Positions 3,804 through 41,000 of a stretch of DNA of 44,954 nt are shown one piece after another; within the stretch, counting starts at the first letter, position 1; the number at the start of each line of letters is the position of its first letter. Under the pieces are notes generated by a model. That model ran no database searches, was not told the origin of the DNA, and worked only from the letters and a program-made list of their open reading frames with translations. The DNA comes from a virus: the IMG/VR virus record IMGVR_UViG_3300033051_000021, positions 1 through 44,954 of that record; one strand, written 5' to 3'. A program made the translations under genes and the position numbers.

Positions 3804-4931
3804 TTAGATTTCCTCAATTGTGATTTTGTATCTTTGTGTAGTAGTGACTTTTGGAAAGTCATTAGGAATATTTAATTCCCAATATTGGAAATAACAATCT
3901 GTTGTATACCAAGAGTTTCCATCCTCTTCATTTCCGCTAACATCTCTTTCATTTATAATCCACTTCTTTTTTTTCACTCTTTCAAAATTATCACAAAAAT
4001 CACTGTTTTCTTTAAGTGTCACTGCTTTAAACAAATATTTTTTATCTTTTGCTTCTTCGTGATAATGCTTACGACCTAGCTCCAGGGCTTCATCTCTGTT
4101 AGTCGCTCTTAATCTGTGCCCACCGCCATGCGGTACACCTTTTTTATGTTGATAACTGATGATGTATAACTCTTTCTTTTGAAGCTCTTCTATCTCTTTT
4201 AAAAGCTCATCAACTCTTTTATCTTTATCTTTAGCTTTAGCTTTAGCTTGAACCTCTGGTACTTCATCACTCGTCATTTTCAAGTCTCTGTACTCAGCAA
4301 TGCCATCTCTTGTAATGAACTTAGTGAGATACATACGATAAACTTCTCGCTGCATCGGTTTATCTTTAACTCTTGATATCTCTTCAAGAACAGAGAGTCC
4401 TATGTCGTGCTTCGCTTCTTCTAAGTCTTTTATAATACTCTCGTCTAGTCGCAGGCATCCAAAAGCTTTAGAGAGATATGACTGTGACTTTCCTATCGCC
4501 TTCGCTAAGTCTCTCTTACATTCATAATTTCCACTAGCTTGTAGCTTTCCTATATGAACTGCAATTTCAAAGTCTGTTAAATCTTCCCTTTGAATATTCT
4601 CTATAAGTGCCAACTCTAAGACTTTGTCATCATCTACACTTATGATATGTGCTTTGATGGTAGTCATGTCTGTCCACTCTTTATGAGCACGATATCTTCT
4701 TTCTCCACTTACTATCGTATAGCCATCACCGCGTTTAACTACAACAATCGGCTGGAGTAGTCCGTTGTCTTTTATATCATGACCGAGTTCCATCAAAGCT
4801 ACAGTCTCAAACTCCTTTCTTGGCTGGTCTGGGTTCGGGTGTACCTTTGAAAGTTGTAACTCTGCAAAATCACCCATGCCATTCGTCCGCGTTTTGTTGT
4901 GGGTTACTTTATCTATCGCTGATAAGTTCAT
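3804..4931 (-). CDS. parB: ParB-type partition protein with extra C-terminal domain
   Basis: This 375-residue centromere-binding protein would act with ParA to segregate the prophage as a plasmid. The ParB/Srx-like CTP-binding domain spans about residues 23-115 (LSKVHPNPDQPRKEF and the nucleotide motif G76-E-R-R-Y-R81). A helix-turn-helix DNA-binding region follows at about 120-165 (KRDLAKAIGKSQSYLSKA). After an Ala/Lys/Asp-rich linker (about 228-240) comes a helical stretch, then about 120 residues with many aromatic residues (about 255-375). That last part does not look like the usual ParB dimerisation tail. The ATG lies 23 bases inside the end of parA, so the two are translationally coupled. 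Candidate binding sites are discussed under the promoter element and the palindrome. Confidence 0.9.
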   Translation of the reverse strand: MNLSAIDKVTHNKTRTNGMGDFAELQLSKVHPNPDQPRKEFETVALMELGHDIKDNGLLQPIVVVKRGDGYTIVSGERRYRAHKEWTDMTTIKAHIISVDDDKVLELALIENIQREDLTDFEIAVHIGKLQASGNYECKRDLAKAIGKSQSYLSKAFGCLRLDESIIKDLEEAKHDIGLSVLEEISRVKDKPMQREVYRMYLTKFITRDGIAEYRDLKMTSDEVPEVQAKAKAKDKDKRVDELLKEIEELQKKELYIISYQHKKGVPHGGGHRLRATNRDEALELGRKHYHEEAKDKKYLFKAVTLKENSDFCDNFERVKKKKWIINERDVSGNEEDGNSWYTTDCYFQYWELNIPNDFPKVTTTQRYKITIEEI

Positions 4932-5529
4932 CTCGCAAGCTCCTTATCTCATTTTTAGCTATTTCGTTTTTTGTGTCAAAAACGCTAGAGCCGACTCCTA
5001 GAGTTGTTTTATAAACCTTTCGCGTTCTTATGACAGAGTCAAGGAGTTTATATTTATTTCCTATTACTTCTTTTATGATTGAAAAGTTACGAGTGAGCGG
5101 ATGAATGTTGTTAAGTACTATGTTGAACTCAGTCTCTCCAAGTATGAGTTCATTTATGATGCCCTCAAATGTTTTGAAACCGAGAACTTCCGTAACAGAG
5201 TCGCTTATGGGGATGAGCACTTTATGAGAGCAGTCTATAGCTGTTCTGTTGATGTCGCTATCGAAACCGCCGACATCGACTATATAGAAGTCCGGTCTGT
5301 TCGCATCTGCGTTTGTTATAAGTAGTTCTAAAACTTCACTTACTGTAGTGGGTTGTAAGACTTCTATGTCATTTAAGCCTCGTATCTCATTTATGAAGTG
5401 TAGAGTCTGCTGGAAGTCTAAGTCTACTAACGCGACTGTTTTCCCTATCTCTTTTAGAGAGTGTGCTAAGTGCCAAGCTAAAGTACTCTTACCGACTCCG
5501 CCTTTCGTGTGTGCTACTGTTATTGTCAT
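4909..5529 (-). CDS. parA: ParA-type partition ATPase
   Basis: This 206-residue small ParA is of the type Ib size class, without an N-terminal DNA-binding domain. The deviant Walker A motif K9-G-G-V-G-K-S-T16, the switch region 'VDLDFQQTL' (about 35-43) and 'YIVDVGG' (about 82-88) are all present. It would form the ATP-dependent partition gradient with the overlapping parB product. It is the first gene after the promoter-like element at 5561-5597, which it shares with three virion operons. The leader is about 25 bases, with a GGGGTTAGGA ribosome-site region. Confidence 0.92.
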   Translation of the reverse strand: MTITVAHTKGGVGKSTLAWHLAHSLKEIGKTVALVDLDFQQTLHFINEIRGLNDIEVLQPTTVSEVLELLITNADANRPDFYIVDVGGFDSDINRTAIDCSHKVLIPISDSVTEVLGFKTFEGIINELILGETEFNIVLNNIHPLTRNFSIIKEVIGNKYKLLDSVIRTRKVYKTTLGVGSSVFDTKNEIAKNEIRSLRDELISDR

Positions 5530-5620: not shown

Positions 5621-6214
5621 TTACCACTTTCTTAAAGTTTTCCCTCGGGAAATTTCCTCGTGTGTAACTGTTGCATATCTTGCTGTAGTGCTTATGCTCT
5701 TGTGTCCTATATCTTGTCTTATATGCTCTAGCGATAAGCCTAGCTGATGAGCACTGGTGATGTAGCCTGCTCTAAAACTATGAGTAGAATATAAATTTCC
5801 CAACACTCTATGTATGAAAGAGTTCATGTTGAGCTTGAGAGCACTTACAGTCATCGGCTTGTCAGAGTTGTTTTTCGCAAAGAGATATCCATTGTCTAAA
5901 AACATCATTCTTCTTAACATCTCCACTTGAACACCATCACTATCGAAGCTAATGAGCCTTGTCGTTTTTGTCTTCGTGTCATTAGATAAGGAGTGCTCAT
6001 TTGTAAGTATCATCTGCACTACTTCCTCTTTCGTTACATCTATAATCTCGCTAATACGACACCCAGTGAGATACAGAAGTGTAAAAGCATTTTGCAGTTT
6101 TACTTTAGAACTCGCTTGTAGTGTTATACTCTTGTGCGCAGCATTCATAAGTCGCTCATACTCTTTTTTGAGGATCGGCTTTTTTGGTCGTGCTGTTCCT
6201 GTTGGTCTTGCCAT
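5621..6214 (-). CDS. Short tyrosine recombinase, catalytic domain only
   Basis: This 197-residue tyrosine recombinase reads directly into the catalytic fold. All the key residues are present: R53 (GCRISE), a Lys-rich beta-hairpin (K81/K83), H145-x-x-R148 (THSFRAG), H171 (IGHKS) and the nucleophile Y180 (TARYATV). The usual N-terminal core-binding SAM-like domain of phage integrases is missing, and the protein begins with a basic 'ARPTGTARPKKP' tail. With parAB next door, a role in resolving plasmid multimers is at least as likely as chromosomal integration. The start ATG overlaps the stop of a small upstream ORF (TAATG). The 3' end carries one copy of the TTTCCC palindrome. Confidence 0.88.
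   Translation of the reverse strand: MARPTGTARPKKPILKKEYERLMNAAHKSITLQASSKVKLQNAFTLLYLTGCRISEIIDVTKEEVVQMILTNEHSLSNDTKTKTTRLISFDSDGVQVEMLRRMMFLDNGYLFAKNNSDKPMTVSALKLNMNSFIHRVLGNLYSTHSFRAGYITSAHQLGLSLEHIRQDIGHKSISTTARYATVTHEEISRGKTLRKW
5639..5652. repeat. 14-bp palindrome TTTCCC-TC-GGGAAA, copy 2
   Basis: Exact copy in the last codons of the tyrosine recombinase gene, about 110 bases upstream of parA and close to the promoter element at 5561-5597. This is the copy nearest the partition operon. Confidence 0.7.
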
Positions 6215-8168: not shown

Positions 8169-8607
8169 AATAGTAACTATAAGTATAGCACTACTCTTTA
8201 CAAGCACACTCTGTAGCGATACTATGGATTGGATGTATGAAGATAAGTCTGGTGAACAACCGCAAGAAACCACAGTTATAAGAAGTGAATGTGTCAGACC
8301 TATAAAACTAAAGCTCATTACCGACAACAGAGATGTTCACCGCTACAATGAAGAGCTCTATAAATATAGTTCATGTATGACACAGTTTATAAATACTCAA
8401 GTATCTTTAGCTAATGCTGCTAAAGATACTCAAAGCAGATTAATACATGTAGCATCTATAAAACAAGCCAAGAAAGACTTAACTAGCTACGATAGGCTAG
8501 ATAATGTAGATCAAAGACAACGCCACGAAGAACTAGCAAATCTCAATGGGCTAGGTTATGATGAAGATAGAGATAAAGAGAAAAAAAAGTTAGAGAAAAT
8601 GAAATAG
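8155..8607 (+). CDS. Exported hypothetical protein (150 aa)
   Basis: The N-terminus is a signal peptide: basic start, then 'IVTISIALLFTSTLCS' with likely cleavage near residues 20-22. The Cys is not in a good lipobox. The mature part is hydrophilic, with an internal pair of Cys at about residues 46 and 74 and a helical Lys/Asp/Glu-rich C-terminus. Periplasmic location is predicted. Together with the small membrane protein before it, a lysogenic envelope function is possible. No family is recognised. Confidence 0.6.
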   Translation: MMLIKIVTISIALLFTSTLCSDTMDWMYEDKSGEQPQETTVIRSECVRPIKLKLITDNRDVHRYNEELYKYSSCMTQFINTQVSLANAAKDTQSRLIHVASIKQAKKDLTSYDRLDNVDQRQRHEELANLNGLGYDEDRDKEKKKLEKMK

Positions 8608-8796
8608 CTGAATATATTTTACAAAAACATTAAGTTTTAACCATAGAAACTCTTTAGGCATACAAATGTATGTCTAGCACAGACAAAAGCCCTCACAGAG
8701 CCTCCTACAGCCATACAAATACCACAAAAACACCACAAACAAGCAAAAAAATCCCCCGAACCGACGAGCCGCACCTTTCCACCACCACCACAAAAC

Positions 8797-8819
8797 TCGC
8801 CGCCATTTGAAAATTTTTT
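8797..8819 (+). repeat. Left arm of 23-bp perfect inverted repeat
   Basis: Perfect reverse complement of 9544-9566, 724 bases apart. It contains CCGCCATTTG, the complement of the motif CAAATGGCGG, which also occurs at 10571 and 10921. Both arms run outward into a G-rich then T-rich stretch when read from the AT side. It may be an initiator-binding or recombination site, or the trace of an inverted duplication. Confidence 0.75.
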
Positions 8820-9543
8820 GGCTCTTTTTTGGTTATTTCGGTTTTTATGAGTATGAAAGATTTTTTTGAGATAGCTATTATATAAAAGAGTTGAACTTCA
8901 AAGGATTTGAGAGTTTGACTCCGTGAGAACTCTGTTTTTACGGAGGGAATTAGTAAGTGAGTTGGTTTTTTGGAGATTTTCCGTAGGTTTCGGATTTCGG
9001 ATTAGCGTTTATTTTTCTTAGAGTTGATGGAACTGCATCATTTTTATGACATGATGAGTGGTCCTCAACTTTTTTAGCACTCTCGGGAAAATTGGTCGAG
9101 GTGGTCTAAACATATTTATTTATTTATTTTAATATATTTATTTTAAGGTGGGAGTGCAAATGTTTAAGTTTAGTCCACTCTTTAAGGTTTAAGCCTTATT
9201 TTAGTGGAATATGGCTTAAGGTTAGAGCTTATGAGGTCGTTTATGTGATAGTGTGAGTGATTTGTCGAAGTGCTTGCTCTTTCTGCAGTAGGTTAATGGT
9301 GTAGTAGGTTAATGGTGCTTATTATGTGGTGGTGGATTGCTATTTGATAGTAGATGTTGGTGTCGTGCTTTTTCTCGTTTATGTTCTGTATGAGCGGTGG
9401 GGAGGGTACTTCCCCAAGTGTACTTCTGTCTGAACTACATATGAGAGAAGTGCTAGATGAAAATTCATATTTGAGTTGTAAGTTCACAAAAGAGCGTTAT
9501 TTCTTAAAGCCTGAAAGTAAGTTTCTCAAGATCACTTTTTCAT

Positions 9544-9566
9544 AAAAAATTTTCAAATGGCGGCGA
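9544..9566 (-). repeat. Right arm of 23-bp perfect inverted repeat
   Basis: Reverse complement of 8797-8819. It includes CAAATGGCGGCGA at 9554-9566, one of four copies of that 13-base motif (one copy with a single change) between 8.8 and 10.95 kb. It is followed directly by the G9/T9 homopolymer region. Confidence 0.75.
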
Positions 9567-9577
9567 CTTATCGCAAT

Positions 9578-9600
9578 GGGGGGGGGTCGTATTTTTTTTT
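9578..9600. repeat. Homopolymer tracts G9 and T9
   Basis: Nine consecutive G (9578-9586) and nine T (9592-9600) in an AT-rich genome. A 27-codon frame (ATG 9557, TAG 9638-9640) runs through the tract. Poly-G tracts of this length are slippage-prone and are used for phase variation in Campylobacterota, but no substantial gene is attached here. Confidence 0.6.
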
Positions 9601-9716
9601 AAAATTGCGGAGAAAACACCAGGGAGTAAAATATTTTTAGTAAATTATGCAGCTACTTCAAAAACAGTTTTGGAGCAAATCTAGCTAGTTCTAAATTGGA
9701 ACATACTGAGAATAAT

Positions 9717-9780
9717 ACTTAATTTTATTAAGGTAAAAATGTCCTCAATAACTTAATTTGATTAAGGTAAAAATGTCCTC
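9717..9780. repeat. Two 30-bp direct repeats with internal palindrome
   Basis: Positions 9717-9746 and 9751-9780 differ at one base, with a 34-base period. Each unit holds the dyad CTTAATTT(T/G)ATTAAG followed by GTAAAAATGTCCTC. They lie just past the 3' end of the repressor gene. The form suits iterons or a dimeric regulator site. Confidence 0.7.
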
Positions 9781-9795
9781 TCTATATATAATACC

Positions 9796-9817
9796 TATTC
9801 TTTTATAAAAAAGAATA
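9796..9817. other. AT-rich hairpin, 9-bp stem
   Basis: TATTCTTTT (9796-9804) pairs with AAAAGAATA (9809-9817) across a 4-base loop, 20 bases past the repressor stop codon on the minus strand. There is no proper U-tract on that strand; on the plus strand a T7 run follows only after 13 bases. It may be a weak terminator for the repressor or a part of the origin. Confidence 0.35.
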
Positions 9818-9837
9818 GTATATACAGCATTTTTTTC

Positions 9838-10245
9838 TTATATCTTTGCCATCTCTTGGAACTCTTTTAGTCTCACTATTATCTGCTCCATAAATTTATC
9901 TGGAGCATACTCCAGTAGATTAATGAGTTCTTGCATTTTAGTAGAGTTACTTATCTTTTCTAAAAGTAGTGGATCTATGGAAGAGTTAAAAGCTAGTTCT
10001 ATTTTAGATATATCATTTAGGAGTATCTCTGACTCACTAAGCTTCATATTTCCATTACCTGTAAGTAACCAGTCGATAGATACTGAATACTTATTTCTGA
10101 TGAGCTTTGATATGTTTGATGGTATTTCTCTTGTACCATTTATATAGTGAGTATAACTATTTTGTGTTATTCCAAGCTCATGTGCAAAATCTTTTTTATT
10201 AAGTTCTAAACTCGCTCTGAGTTCTTCTAGGGGTACATTTATCAT
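9838..10245 (-). CDS. CI-like phage repressor (HTH)
   Basis: A 135-residue protein with an N-terminal helix-turn-helix of the CI/XRE type (about residues 8-62). It has 'ELGITQNSYTHYINGTREIPSNI' as the DNA-reading part and the 'SIDWLLTGNGNMK' ending that is typical of bacteriophage CI repressor N-domains. The rest (70-135) is a helical, probably oligomerising tail; there is no LexA-type peptidase domain. Induction therefore probably depends on the antirepressor at 6903-7634 rather than RecA cleavage. It is divergent from the rightward replication operon and faces its promoter and an operator-like dyad. Confidence 0.85.
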   Translation of the reverse strand: MINVPLEELRASLELNKKDFAHELGITQNSYTHYINGTREIPSNISKLIRNKYSVSIDWLLTGNGNMKLSESEILLNDISKIELAFNSSIDPLLLEKISNSTKMQELINLLEYAPDKFMEQIIVRLKEFQEMAKI

Positions 10246-16473: not shown

Positions 16474-17472
16474 ATGAGTTTTATAAAAAATGTTAATGCA
16501 GTAGCAGCAGACTTGGCAGGCGGAGCAGCATCAAAAATAGCAATTATAAACAAAAACATAATTTCATTTAGTGCAAAAGTTATTTCTAGCCTTAAAGAGC
16601 TAGACACTCACACAACAGCAAAAGAGAATCAACTAGACACTTTCAACACTGCCAAAAAAGCAGAACTAGACACTCACACAACAACAAAAGAGAATCAACT
16701 AGACACTTTCAACACTGCGAAAAAAGCAGAACTAGACACCCACACTGCAACAAAAGAGACTCAACTAGATACTTTTAACACTGCGAAAAAAGCAGAGCTA
16801 GACACTCACACTGCTGGAATAGTAGATGATGTTCATGCTACTAAAACAAAAACTCATAGATACTTACTAGAAGTAGAAGAAAATGCTTATGATGTAGATA
16901 AAAAATTTACATATATAAAAGATATAGAAGTTCGTAAAGTAAAAGCATTAGATGAAACAACAGAGATACGAAAATCTGATTTAGATAAACATACAAATAT
17001 AAAAAAAGTTGTATTAGATAACTATGTTGATGATACTAAAAAAGCAGAACTAGATACTCACACTGTAGCAAAAGAGAATCAATTAGATGATTTCAACACT
17101 GTTAAAAAAGCAGAACTAGACACTCACACCACAACAAAAGAGACTCAATTAGATGATTTTAACACTGTTAAAAAAGTAGAGCTAGACACTCACACTACAA
17201 CAAAAGAGACTCAACTAGACACTTTCAACACTGCCAAAAAAGTAGAACTAGACACTCACACAACAACAAAAGAGAATCAGCTAGATAACTACGAAGCCAC
17301 AAAAGAACTAGAATTAAATGATTATAAAGTTATAAAAATAGATGAAATTGAAGTGTATAAAAACAAAAAAGTTGATGAGATTAATAATCAAGTAAACACT
17401 ATTTACTCTGACACATTTAAAGTTGCACGAAGATTTAAAATGCAGACTTTCGGCATAGGCTTAAATTTATAG
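16474..17472 (+). CDS. Coiled-coil tail-fibre-like protein with 22-residue repeats
   Basis: A 332-residue protein built mostly from repeats of the type 'ELDTHTTTKENQLDTFNTAKKA'. Two blocks, about residues 44-110 and 190-275, each carry three to four units, separated by a non-repeat segment (about 115-185) that looks like a short folded domain. Each 22-residue unit is two 11-residue halves with matching 'LD', the mark of a right-handed hendecad coiled coil. It lies directly before the variable adhesin and could form the fibre shaft that carries it. Confidence 0.6.
   Translation: MSFIKNVNAVAADLAGGAASKIAIINKNIISFSAKVISSLKELDTHTTAKENQLDTFNTAKKAELDTHTTTKENQLDTFNTAKKAELDTHTATKETQLDTFNTAKKAELDTHTAGIVDDVHATKTKTHRYLLEVEENAYDVDKKFTYIKDIEVRKVKALDETTEIRKSDLDKHTNIKKVVLDNYVDDTKKAELDTHTVAKENQLDDFNTVKKAELDTHTTTKETQLDDFNTVKKVELDTHTTTKETQLDTFNTAKKVELDTHTTTKENQLDNYEATKELELNDYKVIKIDEIEVYKNKKVDEINNQVNTIYSDTFKVARRFKMQTFGIGLNL
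16599..17290 (+). repeat. 66-bp tandem repeats in fibre gene
   Basis: Two arrays of 66-base units (about 16599-16815 and 17047-17290) with high identity at DNA level, around a unique segment. Slippage or recombination between units would change fibre length in 22-residue steps. Confidence 0.7.
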
Positions 17473-17526: not shown

Positions 17527-19047
17527 ATGGGTTTAAAAAGCACAAGAGATACACTTGTCAGTAGGATTGAAGAAGTTGCTGGCACAAGTACAGACCTTGA
17601 ACAGTTAAGCTTTGCAGGGGCAAGCTTACAAAAATTAGTCGATATCAACTTTGATATTTTACCAGAAGATACAGCATACAATATAGGTGTTCCAGGAACA
17701 ATGGGATATGGTGTATCTGCAATGCACGATGAGTTAGTTCCAGCTGGGTATATGAAACTATCTAGTCATGATGATGTTGCTCATCCAAATTATGGTTGTG
17801 TGATAGATTTGAATGGAAGTGTATTTGAGTATATTGCTCCTTTTTTCTTCAAAATGATTGGAAATAGTATTACTACTAGCCCTATATATGTAAGTGGATA
17901 TGTAAAACCTCGTGCTTTTTACGACTCGCCAAATGGATTTTTACACTTTAAATACATGGCTGGTAATGTTGGTGGAAAACTTGTTTCTAAACAAAATATC
18001 GACCCAGTATCAACATCAACTTCACATAACCCTATTGGGAATCTATTATCTGCTCCATCAAATAATTATGGTGGATTTGTTGATGCTTGTAAATCAGCAG
18101 GCTACAAAGCAACTACTATATTTGAATGGACTGCACTACAACTTTTAGCACTTGCTCAGTCGCAAAGTGGTGCATCTTCTGCACTATGTGCATTTAATGA
18201 TGTTGCACCATTTTTTCCAAAAGGAAATCTTGGAAATGCTTTACACGATGTAAATGATACAAGTGTAACTTTTACCGGTAGCGGCTATTCAAACTGTGCT
18301 TTGACAGGTAGTGGTTCAAACTTTGCAAAGACAACACACAATGGTCAGAACTCCGGTATAGCAGATATGAACGGAAATATGTGGAAGATTGTAACAGGAC
18401 TTACATACTTAGCAAAAAATAATGCGACTTGTGCAATAAATACAAAAGATGTATCTATGCCTAGCCACGGTTTAGCAATTAATGATGTAATTTACTTCGG
18501 TGGTACACCATCTAGTGGCTCTACTTATAACACTGCTGCTTATACAGTAACCGCAGTAACTGATGGCAATAACTTTACAGTAGGAACTGTACTTCAAAGA
18601 GCTATCGTGTCTACTGACGGAGTTTATAGTTCAAGATATTTCAGAATTTTAAAAACTTCTGTGAATCCACATGATCTTACAAGTGTAAATCTACTTGATG
18701 ATTCTAAATATGATTTGCTAAATCTTACTGGAATGATTGATTCAAATACTGGAAGTACTTATTTTGGGAATGGAGCAGAGACTGTTCTTAACTTTTCTAC
18801 AGATACAAATTCAATAGCATACAAAGCTGGAAGTGTTGGAATTCCAACTCCAACAGGAACAAGTGCATCTGGAGCTACTATATTTGGGAATGACTATATT
18901 TACAAATATATGAGACATGGTCTCGTGCCGCTTGTCGGTGGGGGTTGGAATAACACTTCCACTGCTGGGGTTTTCGCTCTTAATTTGCACAATTATTCGG
19001 CTACTTCGAACTACAATGTTGGTGGTTTCGCCTCTGTTTCCTTGTAG
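17527..19047 (+). CDS. DGR target: variable receptor-binding protein, FGE/C-type-lectin-like fold
   Basis: A 506-residue virion protein whose last about 40 codons are the variable region of a diversity-generating retroelement. The fold markers of formylglycine-generating-enzyme/C-type-lectin-like DGR targets are visible: 'GIADMNGNMWKIVTGL' (about 276-291) and the C-terminal 'VGGGWNNTSTAGVFALNL...VGGF'. Between them lies an inserted beta-rich domain with 'PSHGLAINDVIYFGG ... VTDGNNFTV' (about 315-360). The N-terminus (1-60) is helical and probably anchors the protein to the fibre. Seven codons in the variable region correspond to adenine-containing template codons (six differ from Asn or Ile, one from Asp). 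It likely decides host receptor choice. Ribosome site AAGGAG is 7-8 bases before the ATG. Confidence 0.9.
   Translation: MGLKSTRDTLVSRIEEVAGTSTDLEQLSFAGASLQKLVDINFDILPEDTAYNIGVPGTMGYGVSAMHDELVPAGYMKLSSHDDVAHPNYGCVIDLNGSVFEYIAPFFFKMIGNSITTSPIYVSGYVKPRAFYDSPNGFLHFKYMAGNVGGKLVSKQNIDPVSTSTSHNPIGNLLSAPSNNYGGFVDACKSAGYKATTIFEWTALQLLALAQSQSGASSALCAFNDVAPFFPKGNLGNALHDVNDTSVTFTGSGYSNCALTGSGSNFAKTTHNGQNSGIADMNGNMWKIVTGLTYLAKNNATCAINTKDVSMPSHGLAINDVIYFGGTPSSGSTYNTAAYTVTAVTDGNNFTVGTVLQRAIVSTDGVYSSRYFRILKTSVNPHDLTSVNLLDDSKYDLLNLTGMIDSNTGSTYFGNGAETVLNFSTDTNSIAYKAGSVGIPTPTGTSASGATIFGNDYIYKYMRHGLVPLVGGGWNNTSTAGVFALNLHNYSATSNYNVGGFASVSL
18920..19033 (+). repeat. DGR variable repeat (VR)
   Basis: 114 bases aligned without gaps to the template repeat 19498-19611. 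There are eight differences, all at template adenines: five A to C, two A to G, one A to T. None of the 88 non-adenine positions differs. The VR lies at the 3' end of the variable protein gene and the identity stops 12 bases before the stop codon. Confidence 0.95.
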
Positions 19048-19055
19048 TAGGGAAC
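19036..19055 (+). other. Hairpin directly after VR
   Basis: GTTTCC (19036-19041) can pair with GGGAAC (19050-19055), with one G-T pair, around an 8-base loop that holds the stop codon. A hairpin or cruciform just 3' of VR is a known helper of mutagenic homing in DGRs. The match here is short. Confidence 0.35.
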
Positions 19056-19059
19056 GATA

Positions 19060-19464
19060 GTGAACGGGGTAAGCAAAGGTGAAGTTTCTTTAAATAGAAA
19101 GTTTGTGGAAATGATGAAGTTACTTAATGTGTATCTCAATCATTTTCCACGATATGAAAAATTTGCACTCTCTAATGATATACGAAATACAGCTTACAGA
19201 GTGTATGACTTAATAACAGAGTGCCAAAAGAGATACTATAAAAAGAGTTCACTTACTTCTCTTGATATAGAACACGAGAAGCTTAGAATGCAGATAATCC
19301 TAGCGAACGAACTCGGATATTTTGCATTTAAAGATGGTTCTAAAAACTCTAAACTTGCACGACCTGAACATAGATTTTTAGCTATCTCTCAACTTATTGA
19401 TGAGATAGGTAGGATTATAGGTGCTTGGATAAACAAGCTAAGAAAGACAAACGAGTTTACATAA
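19060..19464 (+). CDS. avd: DGR accessory variability determinant (Avd)
   Basis: A 134-residue basic, all-helical protein starting at GTG, 12 bases after the target gene. Size, position between VR and TR, and the helical pattern ('FVEMMKLLNVYLNHFPRYEKFALSNDIRNTAYRVYDLITECQK') match the Avd four-helix bundle. Avd forms a pentamer that binds the reverse transcriptase and the template RNA and is needed for retrohoming. Confidence 0.88.
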   Translation: MNGVSKGEVSLNRKFVEMMKLLNVYLNHFPRYEKFALSNDIRNTAYRVYDLITECQKRYYKKSSLTSLDIEHEKLRMQIILANELGYFAFKDGSKNSKLARPEHRFLAISQLIDEIGRIIGAWINKLRKTNEFT

Positions 19465-19497
19465 AACTCAATGGGCTACTGCATTAACATGATTTGT

Positions 19498-19611
19498 GTC
19501 TCGTGCCGATTGTCGGTGGGAATTGGAATAACACTTCCAATGCTGGGGTTTTCGCTCTTAATTTGAACAATTATTCGGCTAATTCGAACAACAATGTTGG
19601 TGGTTTCGACT
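19498..19611 (+). repeat. DGR template repeat (TR)
   Basis: Partner of VR 18920-19033. Twenty-six adenines are present; eight (19509, 19521, 19522, 19540, 19566, 19582, 19590, 19609) differ in VR. Read in the VR frame, the template has Asn codons (AAT/AAC) at most variable positions, the usual DGR design that permits many residues but avoids stops. The flanks (19465-19497 and 19612-19706) are non-coding and should be part of the template RNA transcribed with avd and rt. Confidence 0.95.
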
Positions 19612-19706
19612 TCGTTCTAACCTGAAATATCTTAAAGATAAAATTGGAACAAAGGGATGTAGAGTCCAGCTATAAGCGAAATTTTAAAGAGGAGATTTGT
19701 TAGAGT

Positions 19707-20753
19707 ATGAGAAATATTAAGTATGGACTAGAAATTCCAAATACCTCGAAAAGATACGGTGGACTGTACCAGCTTGCTTTTACAAAAGAGAACCTTTACA
19801 AAGCTTATTTAGAAGCTAGAAAGGGTAAGAGAAATAAGGTTGGTACATATTTATTTGAAAAAAACATAGGTGAAAACATTGATAACTTATTTGAAGAGTT
19901 ACAGTGTTTTTCATATAAGCCTAGAGAGTATAGAACTTTTACAGTTTATGAACCAAAAGAGAGAGTTATTAAGGCACCTCATTTTAGAGATTTAGTAGTG
20001 CAGCACTCTATTTATAGAGTGATTTATAATATTTTCAATAAGTCATTTATAGATACTAGCTTTGCTTGTAGGAAAAATGGTGGAACTCATAAGTGTAGTG
20101 TTTATACCCAGACTCAGATGAAGAAATATAATGGAAATCTTTACTTTATCAAGCTTGATATTAGAAAGTTTTTTTACTCTATAGATAGAGGAATACTTAG
20201 AAAGTTATTTGAGAAGAAAATAAAAGATAAACAAATGATAGACATTATGACTCTGTTTACAGAAGATGATAGTTCTAGTGTTGGCATACCAATTGGTAAT
20301 CTTTTAAGTCAGCTATATTCTCTCATATATCTTAACGAGTTGGATCACTTTGTAAAAAGAGAACTTAAAATAAAAAGCTATGTTCGTTACGTAGATGATT
20401 TTGTGCTCATCGGTCTCACTCTTGATGAAGCAAAAATAGCAAAAGAGAAGTGTGAGAAGTTTGTACAGGACAAATTAAATCTTGAATTATCTCATTGGCA
20501 TATACAGAAGATAAAAAGAGGTATTAACTTTGTCGGATATAGGACATGGAAAAATGTAAAGTTTGTTAGAAAGCACTCTTTATACAAGTTCAAAAGAGCA
20601 ACAAAAAAACAAAAGGTCGATTCGATTATATCTTTAATCGGTCATGCAAAAGGTACAAAAAGTTTGAGTTATTTCAAAAATATACTTGAAAACTATATGC
20701 CTTATTATAAAAATTTAATACCGACTAGGAGTCGAAAATGTTTAGATATGTAA
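19707..20753 (+). CDS. DGR reverse transcriptase
   Basis: A 348-residue group-II-intron-like reverse transcriptase. The catalytic Y228-V-D-D231 is in 'YVRYVDDFVLIG'; motif 4 reads 'GIPIGNLLSQ' (about 193-202), the DGR-type variant; 'YFIKLDIRKFFYSIDR' is motif A. The RT-1/2 region 'KERVIKAPHFRDLVVQHSIY' is clear. There is no endonuclease or maturase domain. It copies TR RNA with adenine-specific errors and, with Avd, replaces VR. The gene overlaps the next by 16 bases. Confidence 0.95.
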   Translation: MRNIKYGLEIPNTSKRYGGLYQLAFTKENLYKAYLEARKGKRNKVGTYLFEKNIGENIDNLFEELQCFSYKPREYRTFTVYEPKERVIKAPHFRDLVVQHSIYRVIYNIFNKSFIDTSFACRKNGGTHKCSVYTQTQMKKYNGNLYFIKLDIRKFFYSIDRGILRKLFEKKIKDKQMIDIMTLFTEDDSSSVGIPIGNLLSQLYSLIYLNELDHFVKRELKIKSYVRYVDDFVLIGLTLDEAKIAKEKCEKFVQDKLNLELSHWHIQKIKRGINFVGYRTWKNVKFVRKHSLYKFKRATKKQKVDSIISLIGHAKGTKSLSYFKNILENYMPYYKNLIPTRSRKCLDM

Positions 20754-21142
20754 AATATAACAAGATACAGAAACCTGATACAGTTTTAGAGTTTAGAGGC
20801 GGTGATGATGATACAGTCAAAGTTAATTACTTTGATGTTGATGTTGTTAGTATTGAAGCGACACTTGAAGCTGACATTGATGCTTTAGTAGCACAACAAG
20901 CTAGTGAAATAGGGTGTACTATTATAACTCAAGCAGAGTTTAAAACATTGGTATCTGGAACTGCACAGTTGAAAAGAATCCGAGAAGTTGTTGCATCTGA
21001 AATATCTAAAAATTACACGCTTTCTGATGAAATTGGAATTAGTAGAAGAGCAATTGATGATGCAAAGAGAGTCACTTATGATACTTATGTTAAAACTTGT
21101 ACATCAAAGGGAACATCTCTTAAAGCACTTGTAGGGTACTAA
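20738..21142 (+). CDS. Hypothetical protein after DGR (134 aa)
   Basis: Starts 16 bases inside the RT gene and is likely coupled to it. The N-terminus is beta-rich ('PDTVLEFRGGDDDTVKVNYFDVDVVSIE'). The second half is helical with 'EFKTLVSGTAQLKRIREVVASEISKNYT', similar in style to tail-fibre assembly or baseplate-associated small proteins. No family is assigned; it may be a virion or chaperone protein for the variable adhesin. Confidence 0.5.
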   Translation: MFRYVKYNKIQKPDTVLEFRGGDDDTVKVNYFDVDVVSIEATLEADIDALVAQQASEIGCTIITQAEFKTLVSGTAQLKRIREVVASEISKNYTLSDEIGISRRAIDDAKRVTYDTYVKTCTSKGTSLKALVGY

Positions 21143-22516: not shown

Positions 22517-23011
22517 ATGAAAAATTCACAATCAGATAAGTTATCTAGGATTTCTATAGTTAAATCTGCTGGACTTCAAGCTCTAATAGATATTTTAAAC
22601 AATACAACGGTAGGTACACTTAGTAGTTCTATAGATAGTAATAGTGCTGACATAGTAACTATAAATACATCTATTACAAATATAAATACTCAAGCTGCTA
22701 CTAATGCAAATGACATAGCAGCTATAAATACATCTATTACAGATATAAATACTCAAGCTACTACTAATGCAAATGACATAGCAGCTATTAATGCTTCCAT
22801 ACAGACCCTTACAGATATAGACACACTTATCAACAGTAAGATAGACTCAATAGCACTGCTATTTGGTATAGTATTTAACACAGATGGAACTATAAGTACT
22901 CAAAACTATACAGCACACACACACTCTTACTCTGATGTAAGCATAGAAGATACAGCAGATGCAACAGGCTTGACAAACACTGATACTAAAACAACACAAG
23001 GAGTTGCATAA
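22517..23011 (+). CDS. Coiled-coil fibre-like protein (164 aa)
   Basis: The middle carries repeats of the type 'TNANDIAAINTSITDINTQA', 21 residues long, that is three heptads with hydrophobic I/L/A cores (about 45-105): a left-handed, probably trimeric coiled coil as in phage fibres. The C-terminus has a 'YTAHTHSYSDVSIEDTADATG' segment, a His-rich motif common near the ends of tail fibres. The RBS is weak. It shares its last base with the next start (TAATG). Confidence 0.6.
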   Translation: MKNSQSDKLSRISIVKSAGLQALIDILNNTTVGTLSSSIDSNSADIVTINTSITNINTQAATNANDIAAINTSITDINTQATTNANDIAAINASIQTLTDIDTLINSKIDSIALLFGIVFNTDGTISTQNYTAHTHSYSDVSIEDTADATGLTNTDTKTTQGVA

Positions 23012-32085: not shown

Positions 32086-35000
32086 ATGCCATCTCCAACA
32101 AACAAGTTTTTAACACAGATGAGAGAAGAATATCCTGAGTATGATGATGTTGATGATACTACACTTGCTAAGGCTTACGGAAAAAAGCACTATGATTACT
32201 TAGAAGAAGATGTGTTTCTTGAGAAAGTAGGTCTTCACCAAAGTACTCTACTTGATGATGCTATAGACCTAGTAACTCCTACTGAAAAACCATTCACACA
32301 AGATAACAATACAACTGAACCATCTCTCCACGATGCTATAGCTCCAAATGTTGATGGTAGTATGCCAGCTACTACAAAAGAACAAGAGAAGCCTTTTAGC
32401 GTTTCATCTCCTGCATTTACTCAGAGTGAAGATCTCACAACAACAATGACATCATCTCAAATGAAAGACTCTATAGCTAACGAAACGAGCCTACTGCTTG
32501 GTGAGGGAAAAGACTTTGAAAATCCTGACAGAGAGGATTATGAACTTGGTAAAAGAGTAGTTAATGCTACAAACAAAAGTACCTCTAGTATGGCTAAGGG
32601 TCTTTTTCGCGTTCTGGGTTCTACTGCATACACTCTCATTAGACCTTTTTCACAAGAGACTGCTACAAACGTATATGAATCGTATATGGGTTCTGCAAAG
32701 AAAATATCTGAGTATGTATATGAAGATAACAAGTTTGATGTAAAAAGTACTCACACTCCGAACTCTATAAAAGAAGCTGTTAAGGCTGGTGGAATATTTG
32801 ATATAGACACAGTTCAAGAAGTGCTGCTTTATGGCTTAGACACTACTATAGAATCTGTTCCGGATATGGCAGAGATAGCTACAATGTTCCCTGCTTATGT
32901 TCTCGGAAAGGCTGAAAACAGTGCTTTAGAGAGAGCAAAAAACGATGGAAGAAAAGAAGCGACTAATGAGGACTTTTTAAGAGTTTTACCCACTGCGACT
33001 ACGAGTGCTCTACTTGATAAAATGGGGTTAGAAGCTACAACAAGTAAAATATTTAACGATCTTGTGAAAACTACAGCAGCAGGCGGTATAAAAGCAGCTT
33101 CAATAGAGATAACTAAAAAAGTGAGAAACGGTACACTTACTGAAGCTGTTACAGAAGCAGGACAAACTGTTATTGATAAGATGGGTGAAGAGATAGGAAC
33201 CAAGAGTGGGCTAAGTTCAGTTGATAAGTATGCAGAAGAAGCAGCTTGGGCTTCACTAGCTGGCGGTATCGGTGGTGGCGCTATGAGTGGAACTACTGCG
33301 ACAGGTACTATAATCTTTAACGAGTACTCAAAAGCTGATAAAGAAGCACAGAGAGAAGCTTACATACAAGACTCTTACAACAAGCAGATGCTAGGGAGTT
33401 CTTCTTTAACATCTAGCATAGATGACAATAGATACGTAGTCTTTAAAAACAATCTTGATACAAAAGTAAAAAATATACAGACAGAGTTTCAAAACTTAGT
33501 GATAAACAATCCAGACTTAGCAGTTCCAGTAGAAGCTGTTAATGATATAGCAGTTCAAGAAGCAGTAGTGCAAACTGCTAAAGAAGATGGACTCAATGTA
33601 AGTGATAATAATGGGCTCAATGCAATAGATGCTGGGTTTAAAGAGCTAGAAGCAGAGATAGGAACTCTTGATGAAGAGATGACTCCTAAGGGTAGTGAAG
33701 TTGTTAATGTTGAGCCTATACCAATAGTTAAAACTCCTATAGATACTGCAAGACTTACACAACTGCAAGAGACTCCAGCGGATGAACTCACGGTTGATGA
33801 GCAGTTTGAATTAGAAGATTTACAAATAGAAGAACAACAAATCCAAAAGTTAGGAAATGATGAAACTGCTCTTGTAGATGCAAACTCTAAACTTTTTCAA
33901 GCAAACAAGAGTGAAGAAGCTAAAATAAAAAGCCTTGGTAAAGATGAAATAGCAAGTGATGAACTTACTGCACTCATAAAAGATGGTTTTACTTTTGTAA
34001 AAAAAGGTGACTCATTTGAGAATACGACTACAAGTATAGGCGATAGATACATTAAATATGATGAGCAAGGTAATAAACTCACAAAGTACTCTACTGGAGA
34101 TATGGAAGTCGAATACAGTGATGGAGAGTCTGTTATGTTACACCCTGATGGAACACATACATCATCTTTAGGCTTTGGAGATGGCATTACAACTGCACAA
34201 GATGGAACTCTTCTAAGTGATGAGGAAGCTATTTTAGATGAAGTAAAAAGTCGATTTATCACAAACAACAATTCAATAAAAACTATTCAAGTAAAAGTAC
34301 CGACTATAGACGAAGCACGAGACAAACAAAGAGAGTCTAAAAAATCTGCACCGACTCACATAAGTGAGCAGTTAGCACTTAATGAAAAACTTTATGCAAA
34401 TGATGAGACAGCACTTGCAGATGCAAATGCTAAACTTTTTCAAGCAAACAAGAGTGAAGAAGCTAAAATAAAAAGCCTTGGCAAAGATGAAATAAAAAGA
34501 CTTGATGATGAGTACTTTACTGAGAAATATAGTGATGTGGAAGTACAAAGAGCTTATGACTTTTTACCTACCGCTACAAAACAGAGTTCAGCAGTTCAAG
34601 CTTCACTAGACTTTGCTGGAACTCAAAACCCTCTCTTTAATACAAAGGGAAGTGAAGAGTATATAGTTCCAACATGGGCGAAAGACATAGTGAGCGATAC
34701 ACTTAGATATGATGATATAATTACAGCTGTTACGGATGCTAAGAATGGTAATCCTACAGATACTTCTTTTAGAGTTATGGATGCACTTCATAAGGCTGGT
34801 GACCCTCACTTAGAAAATGAGATTGAGAGATTTGATGAACTATCTCAAAGATGGGATTTAAATGAGTTAGAAGAAGCAGAACAATCAGAACTTGCAAAAG
34901 TTTTAGACAAACACTTAACAGGAGTAGAAGATGGCACAATCACAAGAGCAGAAGAATCGACAAGAGCTACACAAGATGAAACCGCAGATAATGAAGTTGT

Positions 35001-38000
35001 ACAAGCAGTTACAGAGCAAGGGTTACAGCAAACAAGAAGCACAAAAGAGAGTGATAGAAGTCTACCCGATAGCTTCGCAGCTCAAAAACCTTTAGTCTTT
35101 GATACTGCAAAAGTATATGACACAAGAGGAATAAATCACGAAAACCCTCACAATAAACTCTCTGAAATAATTAAAAAAGATGTAGCAAGATATGTAAGTC
35201 AGTTGGCTAAAAATCTTGGTTATGATTTTGAGATAGATAAGAAAGGTAAGAAAAAAACTTTTAATGGAGTAAATAATAATATTGCAGTAGTTGGTGGTAG
35301 TATAAGCTTCAAGCTTTTTAAACCAAATAGTGATGCTGGGATATATGTGAGCCTTAACTATGACTCCTCTATGACTGATGATGGAAGATATGATACTTAT
35401 TTTTTAAATGATAAAAGCTTAGGACATTTCTTTAGAACAATAAATGGAATAGATGATCATACAGGTGGAAAAAACAATTGGTTTAAAACCGAGGACCTAA
35501 CAAGTGATACTTTTGTAAATAAAATAATATCTTTAGTTGAAGCACAAGAAAAACGAGATAGTGATATAATAAATAAAGAGGTAAAAGAAGATGAAAAACT
35601 TGAACAACCAACAGAAAGAGATGATGGACGAGATATACTCGAAACCTTATCAACAGTGGATGATGGGAAAAGTTCGGGACAATCTCGAAGAGTTCAACCC
35701 GACTCTATACAAGGAACTGATAGCAAAAGCCAAAAACAAAGCATTGCACCACTACCAGATACAACAGGTAGACAAAGCAACTCAGATGATGGAAGAGTTA
35801 GTGATGAGCGATTATCAGCTTCACGAAGCGAAGTCGATGGCGGAGGGGGAACACATTCTACAGTTTCAAGATTAGAAGAGACAGCAGATAACTTTGAAAT
35901 AGAAGATGCCCTGGGAAAAGGTGGTCTTAAAACTAAGTTTAAAACAAATATTGAAGCTATAAAAATAGTTAAAAAAATCCAAACAAAAAACTATAAACCT
36001 ACCAAAGCAGAAAAAACAATCCTCTCTCAGTATGTTGGATGGGGTGGACTCGCTAATGCCTTTGTTCGACCCAATGGTTCAATAACTAAGGGATGGGAAA
36101 AAGAGTCTAAAGAACTTAAAGAGTTACTTAGCGATGATGAGTACAAAGAAGCTAAGGCTTCAACTCTTAATGCTCACTACACAAGCAAAGAGATAGTTGA
36201 TGCTATCTGGAGCGGTGTCAAACAGTTTGGCTTTAAGGGTGGAAAAGTTTTAGAACCATCTGTAGGCGTTGGTAATTTTTTCGGTATGATGCCAACTTCT
36301 CTTAAAAGTTCTACAAAGCTGTATGGCGTTGAACTTGATGGAATAACTTCTACTATAGCTCAAACACTCTATCCAAAAGCTACTATACAAAACAAGGGTT
36401 TTCAAGATGTAGAACTTAGCAATGACTTCTCTTTAGTCATAGGAAACCCTCCATTTGGTTCTGTAAAACTTTTTGATAAAAACAACAAACACTTAAAAGA
36501 TATGTCAATACATAACTACTTCTTTGCTAAAAGTATGGATGCTCTTGAAGAGGGAGGAATCCTTGCTATGGTTGTGAGCAATGGCTTAATGGATGCAAGT
36601 AGCAGTGCTACAAGAGAGTATCTTGGAAGTAAAGCAAATCTTCTTGGAGCTATCCGACTTCCAAACAACGCCTTTAGTAAAAATGCAAACACGGAAGTGA
36701 CAACAGACATCATCTTCTTACAAAAAAGATATAAAAGTCAAGAATCAAACATAGATACATGGAGAGATATAGGAGAGATAAACGACACTCCTTTAAATCA
36801 ATACTTTGTAAACAATGAAGCTATGATGCTTGGTAAGTGGGGGAAATATGGCTCTATGTATAGAGGGGATATGCCTGCTCTTGTTGCCTTTGAGGGTTCA
36901 ACTAATACAGCAGGAATGCTTTTACCTGATGCACTTAAATCACTACCTTCAAACATAGTCACTCACGAGACTATCATAAAAGAGAACACAAGCGAAGCTA
37001 CATTTAGCGGTGATGTTTCCAAGGTAAGAGTCGGTGCTATGTATGTAAGTGATGGATATATATACAAGAGAGAACTAGATGTAGATGGAGAGCCACAAGT
37101 AAGGGAAGTTACTACAAAGCTAAACTCTAAAAATAAGATAGTAGAATATAAGCCTGCCGAGCTTTTAAAGATAAAAGGTATGATAGAAGTTGTATCAGTT
37201 GCAGATGAACTTAGAGTACTTCAACTTAATAACAGAGCAACTGATAAAGATTTAGCAAGAGCAAGAAAAGCTTTAAATAAGAGCTATGAAGCCTTTACTA
37301 CAAAACACAAGTTTTTAAATAATGCTACAAACAAGAAGCTTTTTGAAGATGATGTGCGAAGTCCTTTTTTACTTGCACTTGAAAAACATTATGATAAAGG
37401 TGTGAGTGCAGCAGTTGCTAAAAAAAGTGGGGAACTTGTCAAAAAAGAGTCTGCTGTTAAAGCAGATATATTTACTAAAAGAACTCAGAACCCTTATGCC
37501 AGACCTACCAAAGCAGATAGTGAGCAGGATGCTCTTACTGTTAGTCTAAGTGAATATGGCTCTATTAACCTTGGATATATGCAAGAGCTTACCGCTAAAA
37601 GCGAAGCGGAGTTAATCTCTGCACTTGATGGATTTATGTATGATGATGTTGATGCTGGATGGGTAACTAAAGAGGAGTACTTAAGTGGAAATGTAAAAGA
37701 GAAGTTTGCACTCACGGATAATGTTAAGTACAAAAAAGCACTTCAAGAAGTGATACCAAAAGACATAGAAGCTATGGATATATCCATAACACTTGGTGCT
37801 GGATGGGTTCCTAAAGATATTATGGCTGATTTTGTTGAGTTTATAACCGGTGATGATGCAGCAAAAGTAACTCTTACACCTCATAATGCTAGATGGACAA
37901 TAAGTGCAAGAGTTACAAGTGCTAAAGCTTCGCAATGGGGTACTAAAAGAAGAACTGCTACGGAGATACTAGAGCAGACTATGAATCTTAAACAGATGAA

Positions 38001-41000
38001 AGTGCAAGACAATCACGGTACATCTTCTCAACCACAACTCGTTACAAACATAGATGAGACAACAGCGGTCCAAGAGAAACAAGAGGTTTTAAAAGAGGAG
38101 TTTAAAGAGTGGATTTTTAAAACAGCAGATAGAAGAACTGAGCTTGCAGAGATATATAATAGAGAGTTTAATACTAAGACTCTCCGTGAATACGATGGTT
38201 CACATATAAACTTCGTAGGTAAGTCTGAGATGATAAACTTACGACAGCACCAAAAAAATGGAGTATGGAGAATGTTGCAAGGCGGTACGGTTCTCTTTGA
38301 CCATACCGTAGGAACAGGGAAAACTTTTACAGCCATAGCTGGCGTAATGGAGCTAAGAAGAACAGGTAAAGCAAATAAGCCTTTAGTAGTTGTACCTAAC
38401 CACTTAACTTCGCAATGGGGTAAAGAGTGGATGGAGTTATATCCAAATGCAAATATACTTGTACCAACGAAGGCAGACTTTAGTGCTGCAAGAAGAAAAC
38501 TACTTATGAGTAAAATAGCTACTGGAGACTATGATGCGATAATTATAGCTCACTCTCAACTTACTTCTATCCAAAACGACCCTGAGTTTGAGACAAGCTT
38601 TATAGAAGATGAGATAACGAGAATCCAAACTTCTATAGATATGCTCAAAGAAGAAGATGGGAAAAGCAGAAGTGTTAAAAATGCAGAGGACTCTAAGGCA
38701 AAACTAGAAGAGAGAATAAAAAAACTAAACGATATGCAAAGAGATGATAATCTTAACTTTGCAGAACTCGGCATAGATGCTCTCATCCTTGATGAGGCAC
38801 ATGAGTTTAAAAATCTTACTTACACTACTGGACTTCAAGGAGTAGCTGGACTTGGAAACCCTAAGGGGAGCAAAAAAGCTTTTGACCTTTTCATAAAGAC
38901 TCAAAATATTTTAGAGAAGACTAATGGGAACAATGTAGTGTTTTTAACAGGGACACCCATCTCTAACACTATTGCTGAGATGTTTACAATACAGAGATAC
39001 TTAGACTATAGTGGACTTCAAGATAAAAATCTTGATGTGTTTGATGCTTGGGTAAAGCAGTATGCTGAGATAGTAAGTGACTGGGAGCTTAGTCCTAGTG
39101 GGAAGTATAAACTCAACACCCGCCTTAGAAAGTTTAATAATATGCCTGAACTTATAACAGAGTATAAACAGTTTGGCGATGTTGTTACAAGAGAAGATAT
39201 ACCGGCACTTCCAATCCCTCTGATAAAAGGCGGTCGTGCTGCAAACATAGTAGTTGAGAGAAGTGATGCACAAGCTGCATACATAGGAGTAGCAGATAAA
39301 AAGGGTAAATATCCTGAGGACTCTTTAGTTTACAGAAGTGAACATTTGCCAAAAGGTAAGCCAAAAAAAGGGGATGACAATATGCTCTCGATCATGGGGC
39401 TTGCTAGAAAAGTAGCACTCGACATGAGACTCATAGACCCTAGTTATGAAGATAACCCTGATAGCAAAGTGAATCTTACAGTTAAAAACACTTTTGAAAT
39501 TTATAAGATGTGGAACGCTAAAAAAGGTACACAGTTAATCTTTTGTGATTTAAGTACACCTAAGGGTGCAGTAGCAAAAGAGAAAGCGAAGATAGAAGCA
39601 CTTATAAAAAATGCAGAGAGTGCAGATGAAAACGTAGCAGAAAAAGCACAAGCTGAACTTGATAAACTTAACCCTGACGACATAGATGCTCTTAACTCAA
39701 AGTTTAGCGTTTATGATGACATCAAAGCAAAGCTAATAGCTAAGGGGATAAAAGAGAGTGAGGTCGTGTTTATTCACGATGCAAAAACTGACTTGCAAAA
39801 GCAAGAACTTTTTGCAAAAGTGAAGAGTGGAAAGATAAGAGTGCTGATAGGTTCAACTTCAAAGATGGGTTCAGGCATGAATGTTCAAGATAAACTTGTA
39901 GCACTGCATCATATAGATGTACCTTGGAGACCATCAGACCTAGAGCAGAGAGAGGGTAGAATAATCAGACAGGGGAATGAGTTTTTTAAATCTGACCCAG
40001 AAGGTTTTGAAGTAGAGATATTTCGTTATGCTACTAAAAACACACTTGACAGTATGATGTGGCAGACCATAGAAGCCAAGGCAAACTTCATAGCACAGTT
40101 AAGAGCTGGGAATCTACTTGATAGAGAAGTAGAAGATGTCAGCGGTGAAGCTATAAACGCGGCAGAGATGAAAGCTATGAGTAGCGGAAATCCTCTAGTA
40201 TTTGAAGATATGAAACTTAAAAAAGATATAAAAAAGATGGAAGCTCTCAAAAAGTCTCATGACAGAAATCAGTATGATTTAGAGGACAAGATAAAAAAAT
40301 CTACTACACTGCTAAGTGAGAGTAAATCTATTTTAGATGCTTATGCTCTTGATGCTAAGTTGTCAAAAAAACTTCCTAAAAAGTTTATTATGAACATAAA
40401 TAAAAAAGAGTATGAAAGCAGAGAAGACGCTGGTAAAGAGATACTACACATCATGCTTAAAACTCCAGAGAGAACTTCTAAGCTTATAGGTGAGATAGGT
40501 GGGTTTAAAGTTTATGTTGAGACTACAGGTAAAGGTTTGAGTCTTAGTGATACAGGGATAGTTACTCTTAGTGGGTCACAAGATTATGAGTTTAGCTTCA
40601 ACATGGAAGATCAGAGCTATAGCGGACTTACTCTCAAGCTGGAAAACACAATCAAAAACATAGCTACTAAGATGCAAGAAAAAGAGTTGGATACAGAGTA
40701 TGTTAAAGAGCAACTACCACAGCTTAAAGAACAGGTAGGAGAGTTTAAAAACTCTAATAAGCTTGATGAGTTAAGACTAAGACAAAAAGAAGTATTAGCA
40801 GAACTTAGAAAAAAAGATGATGAGCCAACAGATACAGTTGATGAGATGAGCACCGGTGAAGTTTTAGAAATGATAGAGACTTTAGAGGGTAGAGCAAATG
40901 AGAGTTTTATGAAAGTACCTACAAAAAAAGAGGTTAAAGATACAGCTGCAAATAATCACTACTCACGAGTGAATGGTTTTGATGAAGCCGGTGTAAACTA

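Follow-up and report, generated by a model that had tools for sequence, protein, structure and literature searches.

The viral sequence analyzed here, the whole IMG/VR record IMGVR_UViG_3300033051_000021 of 44,954 bases (hereafter the window), carries a real and complete diversity-generating retroelement (DGR), a further member of a known DGR type, with target gene, avd, template repeat (TR) and an intact reverse transcriptase (RT) gene all present and their reading frames open. A sequence-only reading of the same DNA had proposed both the completeness of the element and the order target-avd-TR-rt, and both are borne out, the order being that of Bordetella phage BPP-1 (mtd-avd-TR-brt). The overall reading, to which a probability of about 0.88 is assigned, is that of a complete BPP-1-type DGR serving fibre-tip diversification in a temperate phage whose capsid gene is of the N4 type, with a Campylobacterales host and integration at the 3' end of tRNA-Met.

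The core evidence is the relation between the variable repeat (VR; 18920-19033, plus strand), which forms the 3' end of the target gene, and the TR (19498-19611, plus strand), a pair recovered by a direct-repeat scan that has no adenine bias. The two copies align without gaps over 114 bases and differ at eight positions (18931, 18943, 18944, 18962, 18988, 19004, 19012 and 19031), all eight at TR adenines, while none of the 88 other TR positions differs (P = 2.8e-6 for eight random differences all falling on the 26 adenines). Neutral blastn of VR against TR gives an identical outcome, and the counts of the sequence-only reading therefore hold exactly by alignment and by blastn. All eight changes alter the protein, affecting seven codons, and the TR adenines occupy first and second codon positions only (13 at each of the two, 0 at the third; n = 26). 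A second VR was sought across the window and none was found, the next best match covering 47% of non-adenine positions.

Avd and the RT, described earlier as intact with YVDD and a DGR-type motif 4, are supported by family matches as well as by open frames. The accessory variability determinant encoded by avd (19060-19464, plus strand; 134 aa, start codon uncertain) passes the Pfam cutoff for PF22296 (E 7e-18) and matches phrog_3206 (E 6e-20), and its match to NCBIfam NF033474 (E 1e-19, 70.7 bits) lies under the cutoff of 80. The 348-aa RT (19707-20753, plus strand) matches phrog_1423 (E 1e-101), and its best solved match is 8ub7 (E 9e-54), the sequence of which is the BPP-1 bRT as read from the phage record; its YVDD box aligns with the YMDD of the BPP-1 RT, and its GNLLSQ with GSLTSQ. 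Scanning viral contigs with the RT returned 30 loci, including L032, which is a second record of the window's own virus. The TR/VR survey by neutral blastn scoring covered 24 sources, namely the window and 23 non-duplicate RT loci; YVDD is found in 23 of 24 RT loci and GxxxSQ in all 24. In G002 (L063-L065) and L009, the RT frame runs upstream through the TR, which thus lies inside the RT open reading frame (ORF). A 134-aa gene with no assigned function overlaps the RT end (20738-21142, plus strand) and comes after the RT in 28 of 30 RT loci, whatever the backbone, the other two loci stopping just past the RT; compared with Bbp4 of BPP-1, it shows no similarity.

The target (17527-19047, plus strand; 506 aa) gave no useful match in a sequence family search, and its assignment as a putative receptor-binding tip draws on an AlphaFold2 (AF2) model built from 68 sequences (pLDDT 89.8) and on structure comparison. 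A first AF2 model (18 sequences, pLDDT 58) was poor and was discarded in favor of the one used. Among solved structures, the model comes nearest to TaqVP, the variable protein of a DGR (Foldseek E 3e-12; VIA-align Z 26.3 over 293 residues), and then to BPP-1 Mtd (Z 12.0), variable protein 1 of Treponema denticola (Z 11.2) and formylglycine-generating enzymes (FGEs; about 10), so that the C-type-lectin/FGE-like fold proposed earlier agrees with the prediction; additionally, a small beta-barrel inserted in the model at residues of about 294-405 resembles the barrels of phage tailspikes. The repeat-built shaft that the target had been said to follow is a separate gene just upstream (16474-17472, plus strand), which was identified by repeat scan and as an ORF, encodes 332 aa with 22-aa (66-base) repeats and has a homologue that closes across the ends of the relative G410. 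By analogy with BPP-1, diversification of such a tip would serve receptor switching.

Relatives provide the evidence that the machinery works. A TR/VR pair was found in 23 of the 24 surveyed sources, the exception (L006) having just 123 bases upstream of its RT, and 314 of 362 aligned differences lie at TR adenines (hand-summed, with gaps counted as differences); each source carries 8 to 26 differences, with the 8 of the window at the low end. An initial pooled table (298 of 583 A sites and 22 of 1,839 others, in 22 sources) came from an alignment that tolerated A mismatches and was replaced by the neutral blastn counts. Between L111 and L116, from two metagenomes, there are 29 differences over 8,673 bases: 15 in the 115 VR positions, all at TR adenines, none in the 115 TR positions and 14 elsewhere. 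In L115/L120, the VR differs at 14 positions, 13 of them at TR adenines (two being gap positions), the TR at none and the remainder at 2 in 4,158 columns, and in L011/L015 the VR differs in 22 of 113 columns against 1 of 112 in the TR and 64 of 1,790 elsewhere. The search among related records for VR change with a constant TR, suggested by the sequence-only reading, thus succeeded in three pairs, and such change in near-identical records indicates that the DGR machinery works in the lineage; together with the window's own eight changes, it upholds the earlier claim of past activity. Activity is established for the lineage, not for the window's virus today.

Several relatives depart from the usual arrangement. 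The usual pattern is reversed in L131/L132, whose VR is identical while 8 of 109 positions in the TR differ. In L009 (696-807, 1286-1402 and 6717-6833), a single TR is accompanied by two VRs that lie on opposite strands; the second belongs to a distinct lectin protein of 347 aa, which adjoins an integrase and ParAB. In G413 (L099, L176), a target 72% identical to that of the window, with an intact post-VR element of the kind described below, lies at 8236-10154; of Avd the first 20 residues alone are present and no RT was detected, and avd-TR-RT has apparently been deleted and the target fixed.

An additional feature of the lineage is a conserved element after the VR, a candidate homing-site mark, which in the window occupies 19048-19067 on the plus strand (TAGGGAAC GATA GTGAACGG) and consists of a GRNA loop flanked by tandem G.A. 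Its conservation is clear: the pattern GA-NN-GRNA-NN-GA follows the VR at 44 of the 51 loci with a VR, compared with 24 hits among 4,000 random 66-base stretches from the same loci. The exceptions are five loci in which pairs 3 and 4 are Watson-Crick (L003, L117, L150, L152 and L159) and two, L020 and L126, without an element by the rule applied. The pattern was fitted to a first set of 23 sources, where it occurs 23 times in 583,638 bases, 22 times directly after a VR and once directly after the second VR of L009; elsewhere in these sources, and so after the TR, there is none. Independent tests are therefore limited to that second VR, to pairs 5 and 6, and to 28 further loci, hand-picked from 50 with a TR/VR pair among 75 new loci after exclusion of repeats of first-set records or of one another. 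These 28 comprise 23 of the GA type, 4 with Watson-Crick pairs and 1 with none.

Covariation was assessed in 39 distinct elements, obtained by dropping two loci without an element and ten repeats of an identical element. In the lineage element, pairs 3 and 4 are A.G and G.A, and the four remaining pairs covary with a score of 0.715, compared with 0.300 +/- 0.037 for shuffled sets (0 of 500 reaching the observed value) and at most 0.146 for slid ones. Because the selection already demanded pairs 1 and 2, their pairing is no evidence and only their variation counts (GC/AT/GT and CG/TA), whereas pairs 5 and 6, unused in the selection, are paired in 28 and 34 of 39. Sought first, a classic stem of at least five Watson-Crick pairs after the VR is below background (observed mean 0.85, random 3.0); the GA-type element was recognized only after this. 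BPP-1-type sites consist of a GC-rich hairpin of 7-10 bp with a four-base GRNA loop, located 4-34 bases after the VR (PMC3240598). The lineage agrees with these in GRNA loop and distance, while the window's stem is not rich in GC and no fold is predicted for it. Standard DNA folding parameters applied to five examples give 0 kcal/mol for the window, -0.5 for L007, -3.6 for L115, -9.8 for L152 and -9.4 for BPP-1, so the window and L007 copies lack a stable fold and that of L115 is weak, whereas L152 and BPP-1 are ordinary stems that fold well; the missing fold speaks against a stable hairpin in the window. A hairpin-search script recovered the BPP-1 hairpin, returned stems of the ordinary kind for Bise, ACA1, a Vibrio phage and a Helicobacter ganmani prophage, found none in ANMV-1 and gave nothing clear in G003.

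From the sequence pattern, a G.A hairpin structure and a homing role may be suggested for the element. Tentatively, and with somewhat less than even confidence, the lineage would mark its target site in a manner not described for BPP-1-type systems, through a GRNA loop that sits on two base pairs, below which come a tandem G.A (5'-GA/5'-GA) and then an outer stem that varies, with recognition depending on shape or on contacts with RT, Avd or TR RNA rather than on stem stability, and with one TR serving a second target gene in L009. An element of this kind in place of the known GC-rich hairpin is possibly a new detail; searches of open-licence full text listed no paper that treats DGRs of Sulfurimonas-type phages, and none on G.A pairing in the hairpins of DGRs. 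If the element is functional, comparison with the BPP-1 hairpin makes target-site recognition testable in terms of stem stability, loop and G.A pairs.

The DGR and its surroundings probably have in part separate histories. The phage carrying L021 (G007) is 66% identical to the window in RT and 72% in Avd, and just 32-33% in TerL, portal and capsid, whereas G002 is 63% identical in RT, 68% in TerL and 71% in portal. This disagreement between RT relatedness and backbone relatedness indicates that the target-avd-TR-RT cassette has probably been exchanged between phages. What sister prophages carry at the same place varies: G002 has the window's DGR lineage, G003 a different one whose RT frame is broken, and G004 a fibre without a DGR RT.

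The lifestyle of the virus is read mainly through its relatives. A capsid genome scan gave four Campylobacterales metagenome-assembled genomes, one named Sulfurimonas, three of which (G002, G003 and G004) were read over the phage region; these relatives suggest a Campylobacterales, Sulfurimonas-like host among the sulfur-oxidizing bacteria. In all three, tRNA-Met adjoins a homologue of the window's last gene (44286-44954, plus strand; DUF1804-like, E 0.0013, below cutoff), and an integrase of 357-375 aa, 67-75% identical to that of G003, lies beside the far att copy. Both ends of the G003 prophage carry the same 48 bases of the tRNA 3' half without a mismatch, at a spacing of 47.6 kb, and the G004 prophage is embedded in a 422-kb contig where ordinary host genes flank it on either side. 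Furthermore, G410 (47,494 bases; target 75% and ParA 80% identical to those of the window) closes to a circle through its shaft gene and contains the same 48 bases once, as a single attP between the last-gene homologue and the integrase. The first base of the 48-base core is also the exact start of G411, which is identical to G410 along 27,762 bases; this start may reflect branching of the assembly graph between integrated and free forms. Beside the integrase homologues L186, L192 and L193 (3 of 10), an att-like core was absent. The edges of the window are the stop codons of its outermost genes, the right edge falling exactly at the gene that adjoins att in relatives, and its 49-base left end was found in no other viral record. 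By analogy with these relatives, the window's virus would integrate at the tRNA-Met 3' end.

Several observations weigh against the overall reading. Off TR adenines lie 48 of the 362 differences, the least restricted sources being L005 (6 of 12), L010 (15 of 26) and L023 (10 of 16). The VR is unchanged in the one further record that exists of the window's virus, and a scan for adenine-site variants of the window VR matched that record alone. In all, the VR stays the same within eight sets of near-identical records (window/L032, L003/L004, L012/L013, L017/L018/L031, L024/L025/L026, L097/L109, L131/L133 and L164/L165). Additionally, the host is suggested by relatives, the att copies at the far ends of G004 and G002 match at 37 and 35 of 48 positions (next best 28 and 25), and the window record has neither an integrase nor an att copy, a segment of about 1.4 kb in G410. 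The VR shared exactly by both records, the low number of changes in the window and the existence of relatives such as G413, with target kept, avd mostly gone and no RT detected, would fit a relic that fired formerly and now lies idle with its VR fixed. Such a relic is nevertheless unlikely, given that none of RT, Avd, TR and target is interrupted and all are conserved, that near relatives show fresh VR change and that the second record may stem from the same population. A role for the diversified protein on the lysogen surface, instead of at the virion fibre tip, is very unlikely: the second VR of L009 does sit in a lectin protein without a shaft that adjoins an integrase, but the window target comes after the shaft gene, between terminase and structural genes, and in G002 shaft and lectin form a single 967-aa protein. 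The post-VR element might likewise serve avd translation or transcription end and not homing, as the first possible avd start in the window (GTG, 19060) falls inside it; this is rather doubtful, because the element is also present behind the second VR of L009, whose neighboring ORF is a convergent integrase and not avd, and is seen nowhere else in the 23 sources.

The remaining alternative concerns lifestyle, for the sequence-only reading had described a phage-plasmid, and this would be a ParAB-stabilized episome to which the DGR is linked. The partition genes are real: ParA (4909-5529, minus strand; phrog_164, E 9e-31) and ParB (3804-4931, minus strand; PF02195, E 4.5e-24) are accompanied by a 197-aa small Xer-like tyrosine recombinase (5621-6214, minus strand; PF00589, E 3e-15), which is not the relatives' integrase. 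This set is conserved in G002, G003, G004 and G410, G410 closes to a circle, and G538:C255 has an uninterrupted order of last gene, att, integrase and DnaG. However, the four relatives that keep the small recombinase beside ParA also carry the full integrase, att lies at tRNA-Met in every relative whose phage region was read, and G004 is flanked by host genes; moreover, a circle with attP is equally expected of an integrating phage after excision or in the virion. No plasmid replication initiator was recognized in the genes scanned, many ORFs being without a family match, and no palindrome of at least 14 bases was found as a ParB site near parAB in the window. The phage-plasmid claim is thus not supported, and an episome of this kind is improbable. 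As for the related claim that a DGR combined with an episomal lifestyle is unusual, a precedent exists, since PMC11844821 reports DGRs in crAss-like phages, one of them with a phage-plasmid lifestyle, and the episomal premise is itself unsupported. The window's virus is probably, by comparison with its relatives, an ordinary integrating phage; under this simplest reading, ParAB and the small recombinase may serve a circular stage, keeping the circular form in an unintegrated phase.

Considered together with the homologous BPP-1 system, these features suggest a mechanism in which TR RNA would be copied by RT and Avd, with errors falling at adenines, and the resulting cDNA would replace the VR, a step whose outcome is seen in relatives. 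Replacement would alter at most 15 codons at the tip of the C-type-lectin protein, which probably caps the repeat-built fibre and binds the host. The analysis adds a broad set of working DGRs for phages of Campylobacterales, offers natural evidence of homing in the form of two record pairs with changed VR and constant TR, and removes a doubtful tie between DGRs and episomal lifestyle.

Beyond these systems, the window contains a 63-base tandem repeat at 22648-22805, within an ORF at 22517-23011, which is the sole site where the window and L032 differ, as well as a 4,066-aa polyvalent protein (32086-44286) with methylase, SNF2 helicase and LPD38 domains.

Among known systems, BPP-1 shares the gene order and the C-type-lectin target, an RT 34% identical, a weak Avd match (E 6e-6) and att at a tRNA (His by annotation in BPP-1, Met in the window's family); unlike the window, it has a post-VR hairpin with an 8-bp GC-rich stem and GAAA. 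TaqVP of Thermus aquaticus (5VF4) provides the nearest solved fold (3.4 A over the 293 aligned residues) and likewise bears its VR at the C-terminal end, but its identity is 19%, and the window lectin has a beta-barrel inserted into it and comes after a fibre shaft. The Helicobacter ganmani prophage BK070120 combines relatives of DnaG, TerL, portal, capsid, the giant protein, target, Avd and RT, yet its RT and portal are 37% and 30% identical and its post-VR hairpin is an ordinary stem of at least eight pairs. Phage P1 carries plasmid partition genes. In the comparison with P1-type phage-plasmids and Carjvirus communis (PMC11844821), the ParA and ParB of the window resemble plasmid partition genes, whereas members of the window's family possess an integrase and att at tRNA-Met. 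Finally, Epsilon crAss-like phages (PMC11054128) are also temperate-looking and have a complete DGR with a TaqVP-like receptor-binding protein, but they belong to another phage group and carry the RT motif GxxxSP in place of the GxxxSQ of the window lineage.

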